Assembly: GCF_026210795.1 (NCBI RefSeq) | Contig: NC_089435.1 | Span: forward strand, 1,488,001 to 1,552,000 | Direction: 5' to 3' | DNA length: 64,000 nucleotides | Source: Rhizophagus irregularis | Taxonomy: Eukaryota > Glomeromycota > Glomeromycetes > Glomerales > Glomeraceae | In this document: positions 28,375-52,377 of the stretch, one piece after another | Position numbering within the stretch: position 1 is the stretch's first letter | How the letters are laid out: each line of letters opens with the position of its first letter | Translations under genes and position numbers: made by a program | Notes under the pieces: generated by a model | What the model saw: only the letters and a program-made list of their open reading frames with translations | Told to the model about the DNA's origin: nothing | Databases searched by the model: none

Positions 28375-29984
28375 ATTGAAGTATGACTTTCTGGTAAATT
28401 TATTATTTGTGGAAAGATATTTTTAATAAATTCAAATAGAATGAAAGTATTATTTTGTAATGAAATATTCGAATTGCAGGAAAAAAAAAAAAAAAAATTT
28501 TATATTATTTGATTTATTTTTTTGTAATTTCATACCTTTTAAAATAAGTCTTTATATAATTGGTAAAAATAAATCACGTGAATTATTGTACAACAATGTA
28601 TGCAAATCGAACGATTTTTGTTTATTTGATTGACATCATACGATGAAACAATTGAAACATCCAATTATTAACGATAGAATGAAATTGACTAAAATGGATA
28701 TAAGAAAAAAAATCATACCACTTTTTCTTTAGAATTTACAAATAAGTACTTACATCATTAATATTAAAATTCGCTGAACGCCGTACAAACTATTCGGATT
28801 AAACGCTTCGAACTATTCAAAGACTATGACTCAAAAAACGTTTAGGCTTCTTAACAATATTCCTTAAAATATAAAAATAAACGCAAATTAAAACTTTAAT
28901 TAAAATGATAAGAATTATTTTAATGGTGATTTTGATTTATTATTTTATTAAAACATTTTTTCGTTCAAAAACACAAATAAAATGGATCCCATTATCTCAA
29001 ATAAAATATTTAAAAGAAATGGCAAGATGAAATTTCAGCATTATACTATATATCAAGCTATTTGGAAAGATAAAACGGCTGTGTAAAGAAATTTTCAAAT
29101 TCAAAGGATTTCTTTAATTAAGGTGTGTACTGTACTGCTGTAATTATTATTTTTCTTGTAAATGTATTATTAAACTAGGAAACAAACGGTAGAGTCCGGA
29201 GTGCACAAGCAGACTTCTCACGTGATCTTATTAATGATTACTATGTGTAGTCCCTTCGTTACACTCCAGACAAAACATTACCGTCTAGCATTGCGTATAG
29301 TATCTTCCTCTTCACTTTAAAAGATCCAGTATTTTATTAGATACTTATGCATAATTCTGGTTAAATTATATTGCACCCTCATATAATACCCAGATTCTTA
29401 CAAGATATCTCAATTTTAAACCAGATTTTTTGTATGAATCTGGATATTTTAACTATTTTATGCGGTGCTAAGTGAGTAACGTAAAATTACTATTTTAGGT
29501 CCCCTTATATAAAATACAGAAAATAATATAATGAGATTGCTAAATGTCACCTGGGCGATCATCGGCCTGGGTTTTTTTTTTCAAGTATGTCACAATTGTC
29601 ACATGATGCACAATATATAGAGTAAATTTATTAATCGGCTGATGGCTGATTGTTTTAACTTAGCTAATTTTTGATCGGTTAAACTTAAAATTTTATTGCG
29701 ATGTTTTTAAAAAATTTTTTGCAAACATATTTTAACTCAAAATAATCTTATTTAATGAAATTTTATTTGCAAATTTAAGTCACACATTTTCGATTTTAAA
29801 GAAAAAAATCACCATATTTATTTTTAATGAAGATATAAATAAAAAAAACAACAATAAATAAAAAAGATAAGTAAATTATAATGATCAAAGAGTAAGATGC
29901 TAATAAAAATGAAATAACAATGGAGTAATGGAAAGTAATAGAAGATGAGAAGTGATAGGAAACAAAAAGGAGAAATAGGACATG
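28375..29984. other. upstream AT-rich region, no gene seen
   Basis: Contains the presumed promoter of the 27466-28374 gene; no motif stands out. Nothing coding-like follows up to the minisatellite. Confidence 0.35.
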
Positions 29985-30370
29985 ATGGGAGATAAAAAGG
30001 AGTGATAGGAAACGAAAAGAAGTGATGGGAGACGAAGAGGAGTGATGGGAGATGAAAGGAGTGATGAGAGACGAAAAGAAGTGATGGGAGACAAAAAGAA
30101 GTGATGATAGACAAAAAGTAATGATGGGAGACGAAAAGGAGTGATGAGAGACGAAAAGAAGTGATTGGAGACGAAAAGGAGTGATGGGAGACGTAAAGGA
30201 GTGATGAGAGACGAAAAGAAGTGGTGGGAGACGAAAAGGAGTGATGAGAGACGAAAAGGAGTAATGGGAGACGAAAAGGAGTGATGGGAGACGAAAGAAG
30301 TGATGAGGAGTGATGGGAGACGAAAGGAAGTGATGAGAGACAAAAAGAAATGATGGGAAGTAAACAGGAG
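29985..30370. repeat. 20-bp purine-rich minisatellite
   Basis: About eighteen units of GAGTGATGGGAGACGAAAAG with scattered changes (GATGAGAG, AAGTGATG, occasional 19- or 10-base units). Because 20 is not a multiple of three, all minus-strand frames stay open for long distances and produce three overlapping frames rich in SHHSFSSPITPF. They are consequences of the repeat, not genes. Confidence 0.8.
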
Positions 30371-31521: not shown

Positions 31522-31722
31522 ATGGCTCACAGTAATGATAAAGGTAAAAATCAATGTAAATATTTAATATATTTAATACAAATTCTAAAATTTTTAAACA
31601 AATTTGCAATATAATAAAACTAGTTTCCAGTAATACTGAAGAATTTGAAAGAAATAGTACTAAAGAATTAGAAGGAAGTAGTATCAAGGAATTTAAAGAA
31701 AGTAGCACTAACGAATTCGAAG
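31522..31722 (+). CDS. candidate 5' exons of the kinase gene (octapeptide repeats)
   Basis: Exon 1 31522-31543 (MAHSNDK plus one base), donor GTAAAA, intron 31544-31623 ending ACTAG, exon 2 31624-31722, donor GTAAAT. The splice keeps frame and gives VSSNTEEFER followed by NSTKELEG, SSIKEFKE and SSTNEFEG: four copies of an eight-residue motif S/N-S/N-T-x-E-F/L-E-x. Exon 2 ends with one base of a codon (phase 1), and the intron-triplet array starts directly after. I infer that these exons join the kinase exon at 35405, but the frame requires one extra base from the array. Transcript evidence is needed; these could also be a separate short gene. Confidence 0.4.
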
Positions 31723-34700
31723 GTAAATATAATATATTATATTTATTTGTTTAATATTTTATAACTCAACTAATTATATTTTTAATATAAATAACTAGAT
31801 TGTAAGTGATACATTTAATTTACAGAGAATACTTTTGTATTATGTCTATATTTAACTAATTAATATTTAATAATACTACAGGGTGTAAGTTATATGTTAT
31901 TTACATTTCTACTATTTATATAATTTAAACTAACTAAATTCTTTATTTAAAAAATTATTTGTAATTTCTTTTAGTTAGTAAGTTATAAGTTACTTATTTA
32001 ATTCTATTATTTGCTTATTGTTATAATATTTACATATAATTAAACTAACTAAATTTTTTATTTAAAAATTATTAAATAATATAGCTTGTAAGTTATTTAT
32101 TTAATTCTATTATTATAATATTTATATGTAATTTAAACTAGCTAAATTCTTTATTTATTGTAATTTCTTTTAGATGGTAAGTTATAAGTTATTTATTTAA
32201 TTCTATTATTACCTATTGTTATAATGTTTACATATAATTTAAACTAACTAATTTCTTTATTTAAAAAATTATTTTATAGATAGTAAGTTATTTATTTAAT
32301 TCTATTATTACTTATTGTTATAATATTTACATGTAATTTAAATTAACTAAATTCTTTATTTATAGATCGTAAGTTATAAGTTATTTAGTTATTTATTATT
32401 ACTTATTGTTACATATAATTTAAACTAAATAATTTCTTTATTAAATATTATTAAATTATAGAGAGTAAGTTATTTATTTAATTTTATATTACTTATTGTT
32501 ATAACATTTACATTTAATTTAAACTAACTAAATTCTTTATTAAAAAATTAATTAAATCATATAGGGAGTAAGTTATTTATTTAATTTCATCATATAATAT
32601 TTACATATAATTTAAACTAACTAAATTCTTTATTTAAAAAAATTATTTAAATAATATAGAGTGTAAGTTATTTATTAATTCTATTATTATTACTTATATT
32701 TACATACTGTATAATTTAAACTAACTAAATTCTGTTTTTAAAAAATTATTTAAATAATATAGTGTGTAAGTTATTTATTTAATTCTATTATTACTACTTA
32801 TTGTTATAATATTTACATACCATATAATTTAAATTAACTAAATTTTTTATTTAAACAATTATTTTGTAATTTCTTTTAGTTAGTAAGTTATAAGTTATTT
32901 GTTTAATTCTATTATTACTTATTGTTATAAAATTTACATATAATTAAACTAACTAAATTCTTTATTTAAAATTATTTTGTAATTTCTTTTAGTTAGTAAG
33001 TTATAAGTTATTTATTTAATTCTATTATTACTTATTGTTATAATATTTACATATAATTTAAACTAACTAAATTCTTTATTTAAAAAATTATTTTATAGGT
33101 GGTAAGTTATTTATTTAATTCTATTATTACTTATTGTTACTATAATATTTACATATAGTAATTTAAACTAAATTCTTTATTTAAAAAATTATTTTATAGG
33201 TGGTAAGTTATTTATTTAATTATATTATTACTTATTGTTATAATATTTACATATAATTTAAACTAACTAAATTCTTTATTAAAAAATCAATTAAATAATA
33301 TAGGGAGTAAGTTTTTTATTTAATTTCATCATTACTTATTGTTATAATATTTATATATAATTTAATCATTACTTATTGTTATAATATTTATATATAATTT
33401 AAACTAACTAAATTCTTTATTTAAAAAATTATTTAAATAATATAGAGTGTAAGTTATTTATTAATTCTATTATACTTATTGTTATAATATTTACATATAA
33501 TTTCAACTAACTAAATTCTGTATTTAAAAAATTATTTAAATAATATAGTTGGTAAGTTATTTATTTAATTCTATTATTACTTATTGTTATAATATTTACA
33601 TACCATATAATTTAAATTAACTAAATTTTTTATTTAAACAATTATTTTGTAATTTCTTTTAGTTAGTAAGATATAAGTTATTTATTTAATTCTATTATTA
33701 CTTATTGTTATAATATTTACATATAATTTAAACTAACTAAATTTTTTATTTACAAAATTATTTTATAGATAGTAAGTTATTTATTTAATTCTATTATTAC
33801 TTATTGTTATAATATTTACATATAATTTAAATTAACTAAATTCTTTATTTACAAAATTATTTTATAGATGGTAAGTTGTTTATATAATTCTATTATTACT
33901 TATTGTTATAATATTTACATACAATTTAAATTAACCAAATTTTTTATTTAAAAAATTATTTTATAGATGGTAAGTTATTTATTTAATTCTATTATTACTT
34001 ATAATTTAAATTAATAAATTCTTTATTTATAGATCGTAAGTTATAAGTTATTTAGTTATTTATTATTACTTTATTGTTATAATATTTACATATAATTTAA
34101 ATTAACTAAATTCTTTATTTAAAAAATTATTTAAATAATATAGGGAGTAAGTTATTTATTTAATTCTATTATTACTTATTGTTATAATATTTACATACCA
34201 TATAATTTAAATTAACTAAATTCTGTATTTAAAAAATTATTTAAATAATATAGGATGTAAGTTATTTATTTAATTCTATTATTACTTATTGTTATAATAT
34301 TTATATATAATTTAAACTAACTAAATTCTTTATTTAAAAAATTATTTAAATAATATAGGGAGTAAGTTATTTATTTAATTCTATTATTACTTATTGTTAT
34401 AATATTTACATATCATATAATTTAAATTAACTAAATTCTTTATTTAAAAAATTATTTAAATAATATAGAGAGTAAGTTATTTATTTAATTCCATCATTAC
34501 TTATTGTTATAAAATTTACATATAATTTAAACTAACTAAATTCTTTATTTAAATTATTTTGTAATTTCTTTTAGTTGGTAAGTTATAAGTTATTTAATTC
34601 TATTATTACTTATTGTTATAATATTTACATATAATTTGAACTAAATAAATTCTGTATTTAGCATGTAAGTTATTTATTTAATTCTATTATTATATACATA

Positions 34701-35013
34701 TAATTTAAACTAATCTAAATTCTTTATTTAATAGATCGTTAGTTACAAGTTATTTACTTAATTCTATTATTACTTATTGTTATATAATTTAAACTAACTA
34801 AATTCTTTATTTGAAAAATTATTTAATAATATAGCTTGTAAGTTATTTGTTATTTCTATTGTATATGTTTATAATATTTATTTGTTAGCTGTATTCTTGA
34901 TTTAAAAATTTCTATTATTTTAGTTGGTAAGTTGAGAAATATAGCTTATTATTATATATATTTATGCAAAAACTAAGACATATATTATCTTAACTTTCTT
35001 ATTTAAATTTTAG
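31723..35013 (+). repeat. tandem array of 32 intron-like units separated by 3-base spacers
   Basis: Consecutive units of 63-139 bases (mostly ~100) each begin GTAAGT (one GTTAGT), contain TTTAAACTAACTAAATTCTTT or a variant with a branch-site-like CTAAC/TTAAC, and end in AG (usually TAG). Between the AG of one unit and the GT of the next there are exactly three bases in all 32 junctions, for example ATT 31799, GGT 31882, TTA 31975, CTT 32095, ATG 32174, ATC 32366, GGA 32575, TGT 32763, GTG 33099, GAT 34254, CAT 34662, TTG 34924. The triplet takes 15 values. Unit tails fall into subtypes (TAATTTCTTTTAG, AAATAATATAG, ATTATTTTATAG, CTTTATTTATAG) that partly correlate with the triplet. A last junction at 35014 has one base (A). 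Either serial introns with micro-exons or a satellite derived from an intron. Confidence 0.85.
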
Positions 35014-35098
35014 AGTAAGTGTTAATTTTAATCATAAATTTTAGTGTAAATTTTATTATAAACTACGATATAATTTTAAGGAATATGTTTTTTTTTGC

Positions 35099-35364
35099 AC
35101 CTGCGATATGTCACATCTCCCTTTTTTGGTAATTTCTATGTATTAATTATGTCTGATATTTTAATCACATGACTTTGTTAAGATTTTACATTTTTCAAAA
35201 ATCTTGGCTTGAGGCCTTATGCACTTATTACGTACTATAAGAAACCTTATACTATGCGTATTTTTGACCGCTCTACAAGTTTTCTTAATATATCAAAAAG
35301 GATTTAGAATGTCATTTTTGACTTTTATATGTAACATATTATAGGGGTGCGACATAACGCAGGT
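35099..35364. mobile_element. MITE within the intron upstream of the kinase exon
   Basis: The left end ACCTGCGATATGTCACATC and the inverted right end ACCTGCGTTATGTCGCACC match at 16 of 19 positions, with T-rich extensions outside both. The interior shares TTTTTGACCGCTCTACAA with the MULE-like element at 5.1-5.4 kb (TTTTCGTCCGCTCTACAA), so the two may be related. No clear target duplication. Confidence 0.5.
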
Positions 35365-35404
35365 TAAAAAACAAAACCCTAATTTTAATTATTTAAATTT
35401 ATAG

Positions 35405-36570
35405 ATTTGGAAAAAGTGGAAATACAATTATAGATGAATTTATTCTTGAAAAAAAGTTAAAATGGATTCCTTATAATAAGTTTAAAAATGTTGAATATCT
35501 TAATGAAGGAGGATTTAGTACTATATACAAAGCTATTTGGTTAAAGGATCATGAAGATAAAGAAGTAATTCTTAAATGTCATAATGATTTAAATGGAAAT
35601 TTAATTGAATTTTTAAACGAAGTATGATGATATATTATTTATTTTTTTTAATTTAATTTATAATTTATTAATGTTAATACATTATTATTTTTTATAGTGG
35701 AAATATCATAATAGTTGTTTAGATTCAAACTATATTATTGATTTGTTTGGATTTACAAAGAATCCAGTTACTTTGAAATATATTGTAGTAATGGATTACG
35801 CAAACAAAGGTGATTTAAGAGGAAACTTAACAAGAATAATTGAAAGTGGTTGGAAACAAAAATTAAATATGTTGTATAGTATTATTTCTGGACTTAACAC
35901 TGTACATAAACAAAATCTTATTCATTGTGATTTTCATGATGGCAATATTTTAAATCATGATGAGAGTAAAATTTATGTTAGTGATTTAGGATTATGTCGA
36001 CCTGTAAAATCATTTTTGAAAAAATATGATATTTATGGTGTTGTACCATTTATGGCACCTGAAGTTTCAAGAGGCAAAGCTTATACACCAGCTAGTGATA
36101 TATACAGTTTTTCTATGATTATGTGGGAATTTTCATCTGGAATATCCCCATTTAATAATAGAGCACATGATATTCAACTTAGTTTAAGTATTTGTAGAGG
36201 TGAACGTCCTGAAGTTATTGAAAATACTCCACAATTCTATGTAGATTTGATGAAAAAATGTTGGGATGAAGATTCATTAAAAAGGCCATCTTCTGAGGAA
36301 GTTTTAAACATTATTGGTGGATGGATTTTTCTTCCTTGTATTGAGAAAATTAAAGATATTAATGAAGAATTAAAATGCAATGTTATGGAATTTATAAATG
36401 CACCAATTAGACATAACAATCCTGCTACTGAACCTCACTCACAGGCTTGCTATACAAGTCGCTTACTTGATTTTACTAGTAAAAAATTGAATGAAATTCT
36501 TGAAAGCGAGGATTCACAAGATTTGAATGATTGTATAATCAATGATTTGAAGTCATTAGGTAGTATGTAA
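35405..36570 (+). CDS. protein kinase domain gene (two visible exons)
   Basis: Exons 35405-35621 and 35698-36570, joined over a 76-base intron (GTATGA...TTTATAG) in phase 0, give ~362 residues. Order: a SGNTIIDEFI lead; WIPYNKFKNVEYL; glycine loop NEGGFSTIY; ATP-binding lysine in VILKC; hinge VVMDYANKGDL; catalytic loop LIHCDFHDGNIL (HCD in place of HRD, 35923-35931); DLG in place of DFG (35983-35991); MAPEVSRGK; DIYSFSMIMWE; CWDEDSLKRPS. This matches the expanded Rhizophagus kinase family, in which DLG is common as I recall. The HCD change may lower activity. The first base of exon 35405 completes a codon from an upstream exon, and no in-frame start exists nearby, so 5' exons lie beyond the array, most simply those at 31522-31722. 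Confidence 0.85.
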
Positions 36571-47310: not shown

Positions 47311-50300
47311 ATGTCTGATTTTGAAAACAATGAAAATAAATTATTTTACCAGTATAAAATAGCAGCAGAAATTGGTGATAAAGTTGCAATGTTTAATTTA
47401 GCAATATGTTATGAAAATGGAGAAGGAATAAAAAAGAATTTAGAAAAAGCCTTTTATTGGTATCAGAAAGCAGCTAAAAATGGTAATGAATATGCAATGA
47501 ATAATTTAGCCATATGTTATGAAAATGGAGAAGGAATAGAAAAGAATTTAGAAAAAGCCTTTTATTGGTATCAAAAAGCAGAAGAAAATGGTAATAAAGA
47601 TGCAATATCTAATTTAGCCTTATGTTATGGAGAAGGAATTGGTATTGAAAAGGATGAAGTCAAAGCCTTTTATTGGTATCAAAAAGCAGCAGAGAATGGT
47701 AATGAATATGCAATGAATTATTTAGCTATATATTATGAAAATGGAAAAGGAAAAGAAAAGAATTTAGAAAAAGCCTTTTATTGGTATCAAAAAGCAGCAG
47801 AAAATGGTAATGAAGATGCAATGAACAATTTGGCCATATGTTATAAAAATGGAAAAGGAACAGAAAAGAATTTTAAAAAAGCTTTTTATTGGTATCAAAA
47901 ATCAGCAGAAAATGGGAAAAATGAAGCAATGAATAATTTAGCAATATTCTATGAAAATGGAGAAGGAACAGAAAAAAAATTAGAAAAAGCCTTTTATTGG
48001 TATCAAAAAGCAGCAGAAAATGATAATAAAGTTGCAATGTATAATTTAGCCTTATGTCATAAAAATGGAAAAGGAACAGAAAAGAATTTAGAAAAAGCTT
48101 TTTATTGGTATCAAAAAGCAGCAGAAATAGATTATATTAAAGCAATGAATAGTTTAGCTATATGCTATGGAAATGGGGAGGGAACAGAAAAGAATTCAGA
48201 AAAAGCCTTTTATTGGTATAATAAAGCAGCAGAAAATGGTAATGAAGCTGCAATGAATAATTTAGCCTTTTGTTATAAAATTGGAAAAGGAATAGAAATG
48301 GATTTAGAAAAAGCCTTCTATTGGTATCAAAAAGCAGCAGAAATAGATTATATTAAAGCAATGTTTAATTTGGCCGTATGTTATGAAAGTGGGAAAGGAA
48401 TAGAAAAGAATTTTAAAAAAGCTTTTCATTGGTATCAAAAAGCAGCAGAAAATGGAAAAAATGAAGCAATGAATAATTTAGCAATATGCTATGAAAATGG
48501 AGAAGGAACAGAAAAAAATTTAGAAAAAGCCTTTTATTGGTATCAAAAAGCAGAAGAAAATGGTAATAAAGATGCAATATCTAATTTAGCCTTATGTTAT
48601 GGAGAAGGAATTGGTATTGAAAAGGATGAAGTCAAAGCCTTTTATTGGTATCAAAAAGCAGCAGAGAATGGTAATGAATATGCAATGAATTATTTAGCTA
48701 TATATTATGAAAATGGAAAAGGAAAAGAAAAGAATTTAGAAAAAGCCTTTTATTGGTATCAAAAAGCAGCAGAAAATGGTAATGAAGATGCAATGAACAA
48801 TTTGGCCATATGTTATAAAAATGGAAAAGGAACAGAAAAGAATTTTAAAAAAGCTTTTTATTGGTATCAAAAATCAGCAGAAAATGGGAAAAATGAAGCA
48901 ATGAATAATTTAGCAATATTCTATGAAAATGGAGAAGGAACAGAAAAAAAATTAGAAAAAGCCTTTTATTGGTATCAAAAAGCAGCAGAAAATTATAATA
49001 AAGTTGCAATGTATAATTTAGCCTTATGTTATAAAAATGGAAAAGGAACAGAAAAGAATTTAGAAAAAGCTTTTTATTGGTATCAAAAAGCAGCAGAAAT
49101 AGATTATATTAAAGCAATGAATAGTTTAGCTATATGCTATGGAAATGGGGAGGGAACAGAAAAGAATTCAGAAAAGGCCTTTTATTGGTATAATAAAGCA
49201 GCAGAAAATGGTAATGAAGCTGCAATGAATAATTTAGCCTTTTGTTATAAAATTGGAAAAGGAATAGAAATGGATTTAGAAAAAGCCTTCTATTGGTATC
49301 AAAAAGCAGCAGAAATAGATTATATTAAAGCAATGTTTAATTTGGCCGTATGTTATGAAAGTGGGAAAGGAATAGAAAAGAATTTTAAAAAAGCTTTTCA
49401 TTGGTATCAAAAAGCAGCAGAAAATGGAAAAAATGAAGCAATGAATAATTTAGCAATATGCTATGAAAATGGAGAAGGAACAGAAAAAAATTTAGAAAAA
49501 GCCTTTTATTGGTATCAAAAAGCAGCAGAAAATGGTAATAAAGTTGCAATGTATAATTTAGCCTTATGTTATGAGGAAGGAATTGGTACTGAAAAAAATG
49601 AAGTTGAGGCCCTTTATTGGTATCAAAAAGCAGCAGAAAATGGTAATGAAGTTGCAATGAACAATTTAGCCATATGTTATAAAAATGGAAAAGGAACAGA
49701 AAAGAATTTAAAAAAAGCCTTTTGTTGGTATCAAAAAGCAGCAGAAAATGGTAGTAAAGTTGCAATGAAAAGTTTAGCCATATGTTATGAATATGGAAAA
49801 GGTACAGAAAAGAATTTAGAGAAAGCCATTTACTGGTATCAAGAAGTAGAAAATGGTAATGAAATTGCAATGAATAGTTTAGCAATATGCTATAAAAATG
49901 GAGAAGAAACAAAAAGGAAATTAGAAAAAGCCTTTTATTGGTATCAAAAAGCAGCAGAAAATGGTAATATAGATGCAATGTCTAAATTGGCCTTGTGTTT
50001 TGGAGAAGGAATTGGTATTGAAAAAGATGAAGCCAAAGCATTTTATTGGTATCAAAAAGCAGCAGAAAATGGTAATGAAGTTGCAATGAATAATTTAGCC
50101 ATATATTATAAAAATGGAGAAGGAACAAAAAAAAGTTTAGGAAAATCCTTTTATTGGTATCAAAAAGCAGCAGTAAATGGTAATGAAATTGCAATGAATA
50201 GTTTAGCCATATGCTATAAAAATGGAGAAGGAACAAAAAGGAAATTAAAAAAAGCCTTTTATTGGTATCAAAAAGCAGCAGAAAATGGTAATATAGATGC

Positions 50301-52377
50301 AATGTTTAGTTTGGCTTTATTTTTTGGAGAAGGAATTGGTATTGAAAAAGATGAAGCCAAAGCATTTTATTGGTATCAAAAAGCAGCAGAAAATGGTAAT
50401 GAAGTTGCAATGAATAGTTTAGCAACATGCTATGAAAATGGAAAAGGAACAGAAAAAAAATTAGAAAAAGCCTTTTATTGGTATCAGAAAGCAGCAGAAA
50501 ATGGTAGTAAAGTTGCAATGAAAAGTTTAGCCATATGTTATGAATATGGAAAAGGTACAGAAAAGAATTTAGAGAATGCCTTTTGTTGGTATCAAAAAGC
50601 AGTAAAAAATGGTAATGATGATGCAATGAAAAATTTAGCCATGTGTTATGAAAATGGAAATGGAACAGAAAAGAATTTAGAAAAAGCCTCTTATTGGTAT
50701 CAAAAAGCAGCTCAGCAAGGGATTAGTAATGTTCAGTATAAACCTGGATTTCTTTATAGAATTGGTAAAGTGAAAAAAGTATTAGAAAAGCATGTTTATT
50801 GGTCTAAAAATGCAGAAAAAGAAAGTTTAAGTGCAAATAAATGGATTGAAAATGCTCTAAAATATGGAAAAGTTAAATTTATATCTTATAAAGAGCTAAA
50901 AAATACAGAAAGACTTTATGCGGGAGGATTTGGAACAATATCAAAAGCAATTTGGACTAAAACTAATAATTATGTTATTTGTAAAAAATTGACTAATACA
51001 ACTTATATTAAGAATGATCTATTAGATGCATTTATTCATGAACTAAAAGTGCATCTGCACCTTAATTATAGTGACAGAATTATACGTTGTTTTGGTATTA
51101 GTTTAGGTAATTTGATTATTTATCTACATTGCATTTTTATTTTTTATTTTTTTTTAAAAATTTCTTATAAATTTTTTCTTTAGATCCAAAAACAAATGAA
51201 TATTTTCTTATTATGCAGTACGCTAATGACGGAGATCTTCAAAATTATCTCAAAAATACTTTTAAGGATTTGACATGGGATGATAAGAAAAAATTAGCAT
51301 TTCAAATTGCAGATGGATTAAATTATTTGCATAATGAAAATATTTTACATAGAGATCTTGTAAGTATTATTATTTTTATCTAATATCATTATAGTACTAA
51401 ATAAATGATAATGTTCTACTTTATTTTTTTTATTTTAGCATTCTAAGAATATAGTTATTCATGAAAATAATGCTAAAATTATGGACTTTGGTATTTCAAA
51501 AAATCAAGATAATCAAACTTCAACAGCCTATGTTGGTAATTTTGGTGTTGTTGCTTATATGGAACCAAGACGTTTTGTAGATCCAAATTTTCTATATATT
51601 AATGCTTCAGACGTCTATAGCTTTGGTGTATTAATGTGGGAGATTTCTAGTGGATATCCTCCATTTAAAGATAATGATAATAAAGTTGCACTTGCTGTTT
51701 CTATTAGTAATGGTGCTCGTGAGGTTACAATTCTAGGTACCCCTAAAGAATATGAAAATCTTTATAAAAATTGTTGGAACCAAGAACCTGAAGAAAGATC
51801 AACTATTAATGAAATATTGGATGAATTTGAAAGAATGGGTTTTGGAAATATTGCTACTAACGAAGGTATTTATTTATTATTCACATCCGTATATTTGTTG
51901 TAGGCCAAACTTGACCATGCCTTGCCATCGGCTTAAATTATCGGCCAATCTAATAATGTCTCAAGACTGTACCAGATAATGGTGTAATTAGCCGAAAAAC
52001 GGAGCCGAATACCTGATTCCGGACCGGTTTAATTGCAGAAAATCCCTGGAACTCCACGACGATCTAGACCTGAACGGGTCCGGATCACGTTGCGGCTAAT
52101 TATTTTTCGGCTAACTACACCATTATCTAATTTAGGTCGATGGTAAGGTTTGGGACATGGTCTACAACATATATTTACTAATATATTGATGAAAATAAAA
52201 TAAATCTGTTTATTAAAGGTAGTGACAATTTAACTCCAGAATTACAAGTTAGTGATAATTCTGCTCAATTCTCTTCAAATTTACACAGTAAGTTTATAAC
52301 TCTGCTTATTAAGATTTGATATTGAACTAATATTTTTAAATATTTTGTTAAATTTAGTTGACCTGGACAATGTATAA
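47311..52377 (+). CDS. Sel1-repeat protein fused to a protein kinase domain
   Basis: Five proposed exons: 47311-51106, 51184-51359, 51439-51864, 52219-52287, 52358-52377. All introns are GT-AG and keep frame. Exon 1 encodes 31 full 36-residue Sel1 repeats (consensus NLAICYENGEGTEKNLEKAF with YWYQKAAENGN) and a degenerate 32nd, a helical solenoid for protein binding. The kinase follows: GGFGTISKAIW glycine loop, lysine in VICKKL, IMQYANDGDL, HRDLHSKN (HRD at 51348-51356, split by intron 2), DFG (51484-51492), MEP in place of APE, DVYSFGVLMWE. Catalytic residues are all present, so activity is expected. Intron 3 carries a MITE. The last two exons are short and less certain. Stopping in intron 3 would give an alternative end at 51901-51903. 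Confidence 0.88.
47581..49524 (+). repeat. 972-bp in-frame tandem duplication of nine Sel1 repeats
   Basis: 47581-48552 and 48553-49524 are nearly identical; reading them side by side I noticed only a handful of differences (for example GATAAT/TATAAT near 48018/48990 and GTCAT/GTTAT). 972 is nine times 108, the exact DNA length of nine Sel1 repeats, so the frame is kept. Repeats 3-11 were copied as a block, most likely by unequal exchange. Confidence 0.85.
51896..52169. mobile_element. 274-bp MITE inserted in a kinase intron
   Basis: Ends TGTTGTAG and CTACAACA are inverse, with weaker symmetry further in (CCATCGGCTTAAATTATC against CCATCGACCTAAATTAGA; GATAATGGTGTAATTAGCCG against GATAATGGTGTAGTTAGCCG). 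TATATT is duplicated at 51890-51895 and 52170-52175. Removing it leaves an intron of ~75 bases, the usual size here, with TACTAAT just right of the insertion as a possible branch site. Confidence 0.75.

Follow-up and report, generated by a model that had tools for sequence, protein, structure and literature searches.

The nearest splicing precedents for the arrays described here are single exons of 1 to 3 nt and the micro-exon genes (MEGs) of Schistosoma. The nearest evolutionary precedent is the Podospora family of allorecognition repeats. Arabidopsis APC11 contains a 1-nt exon, and the model proposed for it is intron definition with step-wise intron removal (PMC4674806). Among fungi, a 1-nt exon backed by transcripts is known in Fusarium CYP621A (PMC12940212), and Drosophila hth has a very small exon of the 1-3 nt class (PMC7392893). 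According to a study of Schistosoma MEGs, very small symmetrical exons form much of the coding region, and the genes are associated with variable proteins and a high dN/dS (PMC4350168). The NWD repeats of Podospora belong to the NWD/HNWD family of fungal allorecognition repeats (PMC1805685, PMC2873952). These repeats are reported to be homogenised within and between genes, with four codons per repeat under positive selection (PMC1805685).

Here, we describe a gene of Rhizophagus irregularis that resembles each of these systems in part. Like APC11, CYP621A and hth, the gene has predicted 1- or 3-nt exons between ordinary introns. However, the exons in those genes are alone, whereas 12-57 units lie in series in 42 of the 43 arrays that we read. 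As in the MEGs, the exons are small and symmetrical, at 3 nt. Unlike in the MEGs, each exon is one codon, the introns are near-identical repeats, and the gene encodes a fungal kinase. The exons would add ~33 residues before a kinase encoded by ordinary exons, and stop avoidance suggests full inclusion rather than alternative splicing. The likeness to NWD/HNWD lies in near-identical repeats, within and between genes of a fungal family, with few variable codons. There, the whole repeat is translated and the protein is of the NACHT/WD-repeat type, acting in an incompatibility reaction; here, the homogenised part is intron, the variable codon alone would be kept, and a protein kinase domain follows downstream. 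TAL effector repeats are also near-identical, each with a tiny hypervariable position. In that case there are no introns and the conserved parts are translated; we propose no common descent. To our knowledge, no described system combines micro-exon splicing with recognition repeats at one codon per exon. No paper on micro-exon arrays in Rhizophagus was found in the open-access literature searched. Note that such tiny exons tend to escape ordinary gene annotation.

The gene lies in a stretch of 64,000 nucleotides (C7:1488001-1552000), the whole of which we call the window. The genome searched comprises 146.7 Mb in 32 contigs; R. irregularis is reported to have 32 chromosomes and 2,533 kinase genes (PMC10234402). 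An initial annotation, made from the letters of the window, listed 32 acceptor-donor pairs with a spacer of exactly three bases. Each of the 32 AG-NNN-GT sites is confirmed, the first triplet being ATT (31799) and the last TTG (34924-34926), and its count of 15 distinct triplet values is correct. It overlooked one further acceptor-donor pair before the kinase exon, separated by a single nucleotide, A (35014). In total, the gene has 33 internal micro-exons and 34 introns (Table 1). Introns 1-33 are 63-139 nt long and intron 34 is 390 nt. The GTAAGT donor described in the initial annotation follows 30/32 triplets (the exceptions are GTAAGA at 33666 and GTTAGT at 34738), and the array opens at 31723 with a GTAAAT donor. 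Branch sites are looser than was claimed: 25 of the 34 introns contain CTAAC or TTAAC. Downstream of the array, the protein kinase domain is matched by PF07714 (E 1.2e-31 over 35698-36567). In 35 of the 36 other loci with an acceptor found, the kinase acceptor is 64-87 nt past the 1-nt exon; in locus L034 the distance is 478 nt. Given this range, the 390-nt last intron of the window gene likely contains an insertion.

Table 1. The micro-exon gene of the window, with all positions counted from the first base of the window.
Feature	Position	Strand	Remarks
Exon 1 (22 nt)	31522..31543	+	MAHSNDK plus one base; ends in phase 1
Exon 2 (99 nt)	31624..31722	+	Acidic 24-nt coding repeats, VSSNTEEFERNSTKELEGSSIKEFKESSTNEFE; ends in phase 1
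Array	31723..35013	+	33 introns (63-139 nt) with 32 three-nt micro-exons between
Micro-exon triplets, full span	31799..34926	+	Peptide predicted from serial splicing (phase-1 reading with flanking bases): DWFTYDNQRKLFISGGKFVNNDDRRWKIAYPFE
Triplets 1-8	31799 ATT, 31882 GGT, 31975 TTA, 32085 CTT, 32174 ATG, 32280 ATA, 32366 ATC, 32462 AGA		
Triplets 9-16	32565 GGA, 32660 AGT, 32763 TGT, 32880 TTA, 32993 TTA, 33099 GTG, 33200 GTG, 33304 GGA		
Triplets 17-24	33446 AGT, 33549 TTG, 33663 TTA, 33769 ATA, 33868 ATG, 33967 ATG, 34033 ATC, 34144 GGA		
Triplets 25-32	34254 GAT, 34359 GGA, 34469 AGA, 34575 TTG, 34662 CAT, 34735 ATC, 34835 CTT, 34924 TTG		
One-nt micro-exon (A)	35014..35014	+	Phase 1 to phase 2; conserved array end, 117 genome-wide
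Last intron (390 nt)	35015..35404	+	
First kinase exon	35405..35624	+	Starts in phase 2, FGKSGNTIIDEFILEKKLKWIPYNKFKNVEYLNEGGFSTIYK...; end approximate
Second kinase exon	35698..36570	+	Protein kinase domain; PF07714 and PF00069; ORF

The initial annotation pointed to other kinase loci as a place to look for the same array, and it recurs genome-wide. A strict two-donor unit pattern, GTAAGTTN{72,101}TAGNNNGTAAGT, has 3152 matches in the whole genome, compared with 11 for the reversed pattern used as a control. Hence, a chance origin is excluded. The conserved last unit, with <=1 mismatch allowed, is found 117 times (4 in the control), and a DNA search with about nine units returned at least 222 matches (30 of 334 candidates scored). 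Because the strict pattern recovers 739 of the 1399 parsed units in the arrays read, its 3152 matches correspond, as a rough estimate, to ~6000 units in the genome.

We read 43 arrays (1348 triplets), all from one genome. The first set consists of the window and 18 of ~30 loci listed by the DNA search. The held-out set consists of 20 of the 81 exact array-end sites outside the first set; the expectation was fixed before extraction. The third set is four arrays taken from the strict pattern, with a more diverged kinase, and we refer to these as the second subfamily. Parsing of units followed a fixed rule: [CT]AG, a spacer of 0-3 nt, then a donor from a list. For the third set, the donor list was slightly different and sites <60 nt from the preceding site were removed. 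The wider donor list was chosen before stops were counted; a phase-1 stop in L008, present with the strict list, is absent with it. Stop counts are for neighbours <=150 nt apart with 3-nt spacers and, from the held-out set onward, also >=60 nt apart. Among 1115 GTAAGT donors in 39 arrays, the nearest [CT]AG is exactly 3 nt upstream in 1085. For 13 of the others the distance is 0, 1, 2, 4 or 6 nt, and for the last 17 no [CT]AG occurs within 9 nt. The median intron length across parsed arrays is 100 nt. There are 20-57 units in 37/43 arrays, a count that includes the last 1-nt unit and is a minimum where an array was incompletely extracted or parsed.

Some arrays depart from this layout. In L036, the parse yields just two units, the final TTG triplet followed by the 1-nt exon, the array having collapsed or been lost. 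Zero-length spacers, where AG abuts GTAAGT, occur at L006 5916, L020 5191 and L021 3062 (gene orientation) and resemble recursive-splicing sites. Single units carry long foreign insertions at L005 5056-5683, L009 2515-2956, L017 1380-1632 and L020 3146-3788 (gene orientation); by eye, the L017 insertion has inverted-repeat ends. The window kinase has an aspartate in its catalytic loop (HCD) that, judged by eye, is substituted in L043 and L045 of the second subfamily (HYS and HYN). Hence, these two may encode pseudokinases.

Logically, translation of a fully spliced product should lead to stop avoidance only between neighbouring triplets and only in one phase. In phase 1, the frame of the upstream exon, each junction codon is made of one triplet's last base and the next triplet's first two bases. 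Across the 43 arrays, adjacent triplets give 2 stops in 1240 such codons. Triplets at lag 2 give 35 stops in 1138, those at lag 3 give 40 in 1041, and stops run at 3-4% over lags 2 to 6. Adjacent triplets read in phase 2 give 217 stops in 1240. Fisher's test of 2/1240 against 35/1138 returns p ~1e-9, an optimistic value since the units are related. Counted per array (39), a lag-1 stop is present in 2 and a lag-2 stop in 19; lag 1 is lower than lag 2 in 18 and higher in 1 (sign test p 8e-5, again optimistic since arrays share kinship). We know of no DNA-level process that avoids stops solely between neighbours and in one phase.

The sets can also be considered separately. The first set has 0/642 stops at lag 1, compared with 19/642 when neighbours are reversed and 103/642 in phase 2; the counts for lags 2-5 are 14/595, 15/549, 15/505 and 14/463. 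Joining every consecutive triplet of that set, gaps included, creates 3 phase-1 stops (shuffle mean 17.9, minimum 9, n=2000). The held-out set has 2/437 stops at lag 1, one in L026, where the donor is a weak GTAAAA, and one in L029, and 12/388 at lag 2 (within-run shuffle mean 11.2, minimum 2, n=5000). For the second subfamily the numbers are 0/161 and 9/155 (shuffle mean 9.5, minimum 1, n=5000). In the window, phases 0 and 1 are free of stops, as the initial annotation stated, and phase 2 has 7 stops at 31 junctions. Note that in 1257/1348 triplets the middle base, which a phase-1 reading places at the third codon position, is T or G. The codons are thus like those of an NNK library, with TAG almost the sole possible stop. 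When all parsed units are joined across gaps, a stop results in 8/43 arrays (L016, L020, L021, L026, L029, L034, L044 and L045). Some of these span >150-nt gaps, with a unit unrecognised, and others have a spacer of 0, 1 or 2 nt. Such arrays may belong to pseudogenes, or depend on unit skipping.

Since stop avoidance is absent from lag 2 onwards, selection appears to act on the fully joined product. This bears on a reading in which units are spliced serially but skipped in a regulated way, with many in-frame isoforms per gene as the main use of the array. Loss of whole 3-nt units would preserve the frame, and L012, L016 and L021 would require a skip to stay in frame. However, the 3-4% of stops at lags 2 to 6 is what joining across skipped units would encounter. 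We therefore consider this use of the array unlikely, and the free skipping of any subset, put forward in the initial annotation, is not supported.

The triplets are the variable part of each unit. Their entropy is 1.88, 1.22 and 1.97 bits at the three bases (1181 triplets, 39 arrays); that of the splice signals in the same arrays is near zero, partly by construction, because the counted sites all fit the parse. We then paired nearest-neighbour units on their flanks alone (435 pairs). Divergence is 2.4% in intron bodies, 0.7% in donors and 0.2% in acceptors, compared with 28.3%, 11.0% and 28.5% at the triplet bases, the slow base being the third codon position; the splice-site values are again partly by construction. 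In the comparison of triplet and unit variability that the initial annotation called for, the triplet is the more variable part of near-identical units. Where 90/90 flanking bases are identical, triplets differ in 146/456 same-array pairs and 770/998 between-array pairs, the pairs being non-independent. Single-base changes number 134/557 at the first base, 15/438 at the second (third in the phase-1 codon) and 188/611 at the third. A slow third codon position, changing at near the intron rate, is the pattern of selection for amino-acid change, although splice-site context could be an alternative cause of the low middle-base rate. Third-position changes by codon box (1/26 against 9/169) are too few cases. 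G+C content is 39.9% in triplets and 9.2% in intron bodies. Over 983 junction codons, the commonest residues are D, R, W, N, L, F and Y, a make-up that would suit a binding surface. We regard diversifying selection as the probable driver of codon divergence.

A different agent would be a targeted mutator that, as in diversity-generating systems, rewrites triplets. It would account for triplets that differ between identical flanks, both within and between arrays, and for the 52 of the 146 differing same-array pairs that differ at two or three bases. Such an agent would not be expected to spare the middle base. Moreover, by eye, ATT GGT occurs among the first seven triplets in 33/43 arrays, and TTG is the last triplet in 34/43. 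Conserved ends with a variable middle, in the same kind of unit, are evidence against blind hypermutation, and we judge a mutator improbable.

Could the introns instead be mobile, introner-like elements inserted between existing codons, so that the triplets are old coding sequence? The triplets have a coding-like base composition, and identical introns flank different triplets, between chromosomes too. Yet independent insertions would not be expected to leave an exact one-codon spacing over a thousand units, and multi-unit block repeats are visible (for example, in L018). This origin is very unlikely. A search for an intronless copy with one spliced-junction pattern (<=3 mismatches) recognised none, with 7 matches against 4 in the control.

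The flanking exons define what the array has to supply. Exon 1 is 1 mod 3 in 20/39 loci; in L006 the pattern matched inside exon 2, and 18 loci had no match. The following exon is open in 17/39 loci and is 0 mod 3 each time; longer exon-2 pattern matches, spanning two exons, include stops. Upstream exons end in phase 1 wherever found. For the kinase exon the starting phase is 2 in 37/39 loci; the exon was not found within the 552 and 522 nt examined downstream of L024 and L026. Hence, the array must contribute 1 mod 3 bases, and the 1-nt exon provides the missing one; in the window, it is the A at 35014 that brings the kinase exon (from 35405) into frame. Sums were taken from the first and third sets (the held-out parse halts at non-triplet units). 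They equal 1 mod 3 in 16/19 arrays of the first (exceptions L012, L016 and L021) and 3/4 of the third (exception L044).

We also considered a phase 0 reading. Stop triplets are rare in this phase (1/691 in the first set and 2/490 in the held-out set), so stops by themselves cannot exclude it. Phase 0 would also predict the excess seen at the last triplet base, where changes number 89/225 in four-fold and 99/386 in split boxes. However, the flanking exon phases and the neighbour-only stop avoidance favour phase 1, and phase 0 is disfavoured.

The least probable reading, the alternative offered in the initial annotation, is a satellite grown from one intron and excised as a single long intron with its triplets never translated; although the units are tandem repeats with block duplications, and an internal acceptor, TTATAG, would permit an in-frame skip of the whole array in 23/43 loci, we reject it because that acceptor is absent in 20/43, the phases of the flanking exons mismatch at the main kinase acceptor (joining the phase-1 upstream donor to it meets a stop after 6-17 codons in 37/37 loci with that exon), stop avoidance is restricted to neighbours and phase 1, and triplet divergence is >10x that of introns. 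The TTATAG skip might nonetheless give an additional short isoform in the 23 loci.

Our preferred reading, which we consider very likely on the sequence data, is that all units are spliced in order and yield, before the kinase, a hypervariable peptide whose diversity is maintained by selection and by exchange among repeats. Serial one-codon micro-exons, as proposed in the initial annotation, are backed by the neighbour-only stop avoidance, the 1-mod-3 arithmetic and the hypervariable triplets in near-identical introns. Array structure, genome-wide occurrence, the neighbour-only open frame, frame arithmetic and codon hypervariability can be read from the DNA; that the arrays are actually spliced and translated is something of which we are confident. 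The array would be a chain of real spliceosomal introns of ~100 nt, individually recognised and removed serially. With ~100-nt introns and 3-nt exons, intron definition and step-wise removal would be the natural route. Every 3-nt spacer would be an exon, and ordered joining would add 32 triplets and one base to the mRNA. The resulting peptide, directly ahead of the kinase domain, would be conserved at both ends and hypervariable in between. Growth or shrinkage of the array by units or blocks would add or remove one codon per unit without a frameshift. Exchange among units, which we model on the conclusion drawn for Podospora NWD, would keep introns alike within and between genes, and selection for amino-acid change would push the codons apart. 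The kinase family would thereby acquire a repertoire of hypervariable segments, for which partner recognition seems the likeliest use.

Such a recognition role for the variable segment is a tentative proposal. Equally tentatively, the ~6000 one-codon exons may amount to a naturally occurring recognition library, composed codon by codon across a large kinase family, with introns as a recombining scaffold and codons shuffled and diversified into each kinase's binding segment, for example in self/non-self or partner sensing. If transcripts confirm the preferred reading, this would be a eukaryotic gene family that devotes a separate exon to each codon of a hypervariable protein segment, an undescribed mode of protein construction and diversification. 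The known bounds on how small exons can be and how faithfully they are spliced would be extended, introns would gain a direct role as a scaffold for codon shuffling, and an apparent arbuscular mycorrhizal fungus would have a candidate diversity system.

Other repeats are present in the window. A purine-rich minisatellite with 20/40/60-bp units (29983-30358) is just 5' of the gene. Further downstream, ~31 tandem copies of a 108-bp unit (47352-50711) keep a single frame (36 codons), and resemble what we take to be a Sel1-type repeat gene.
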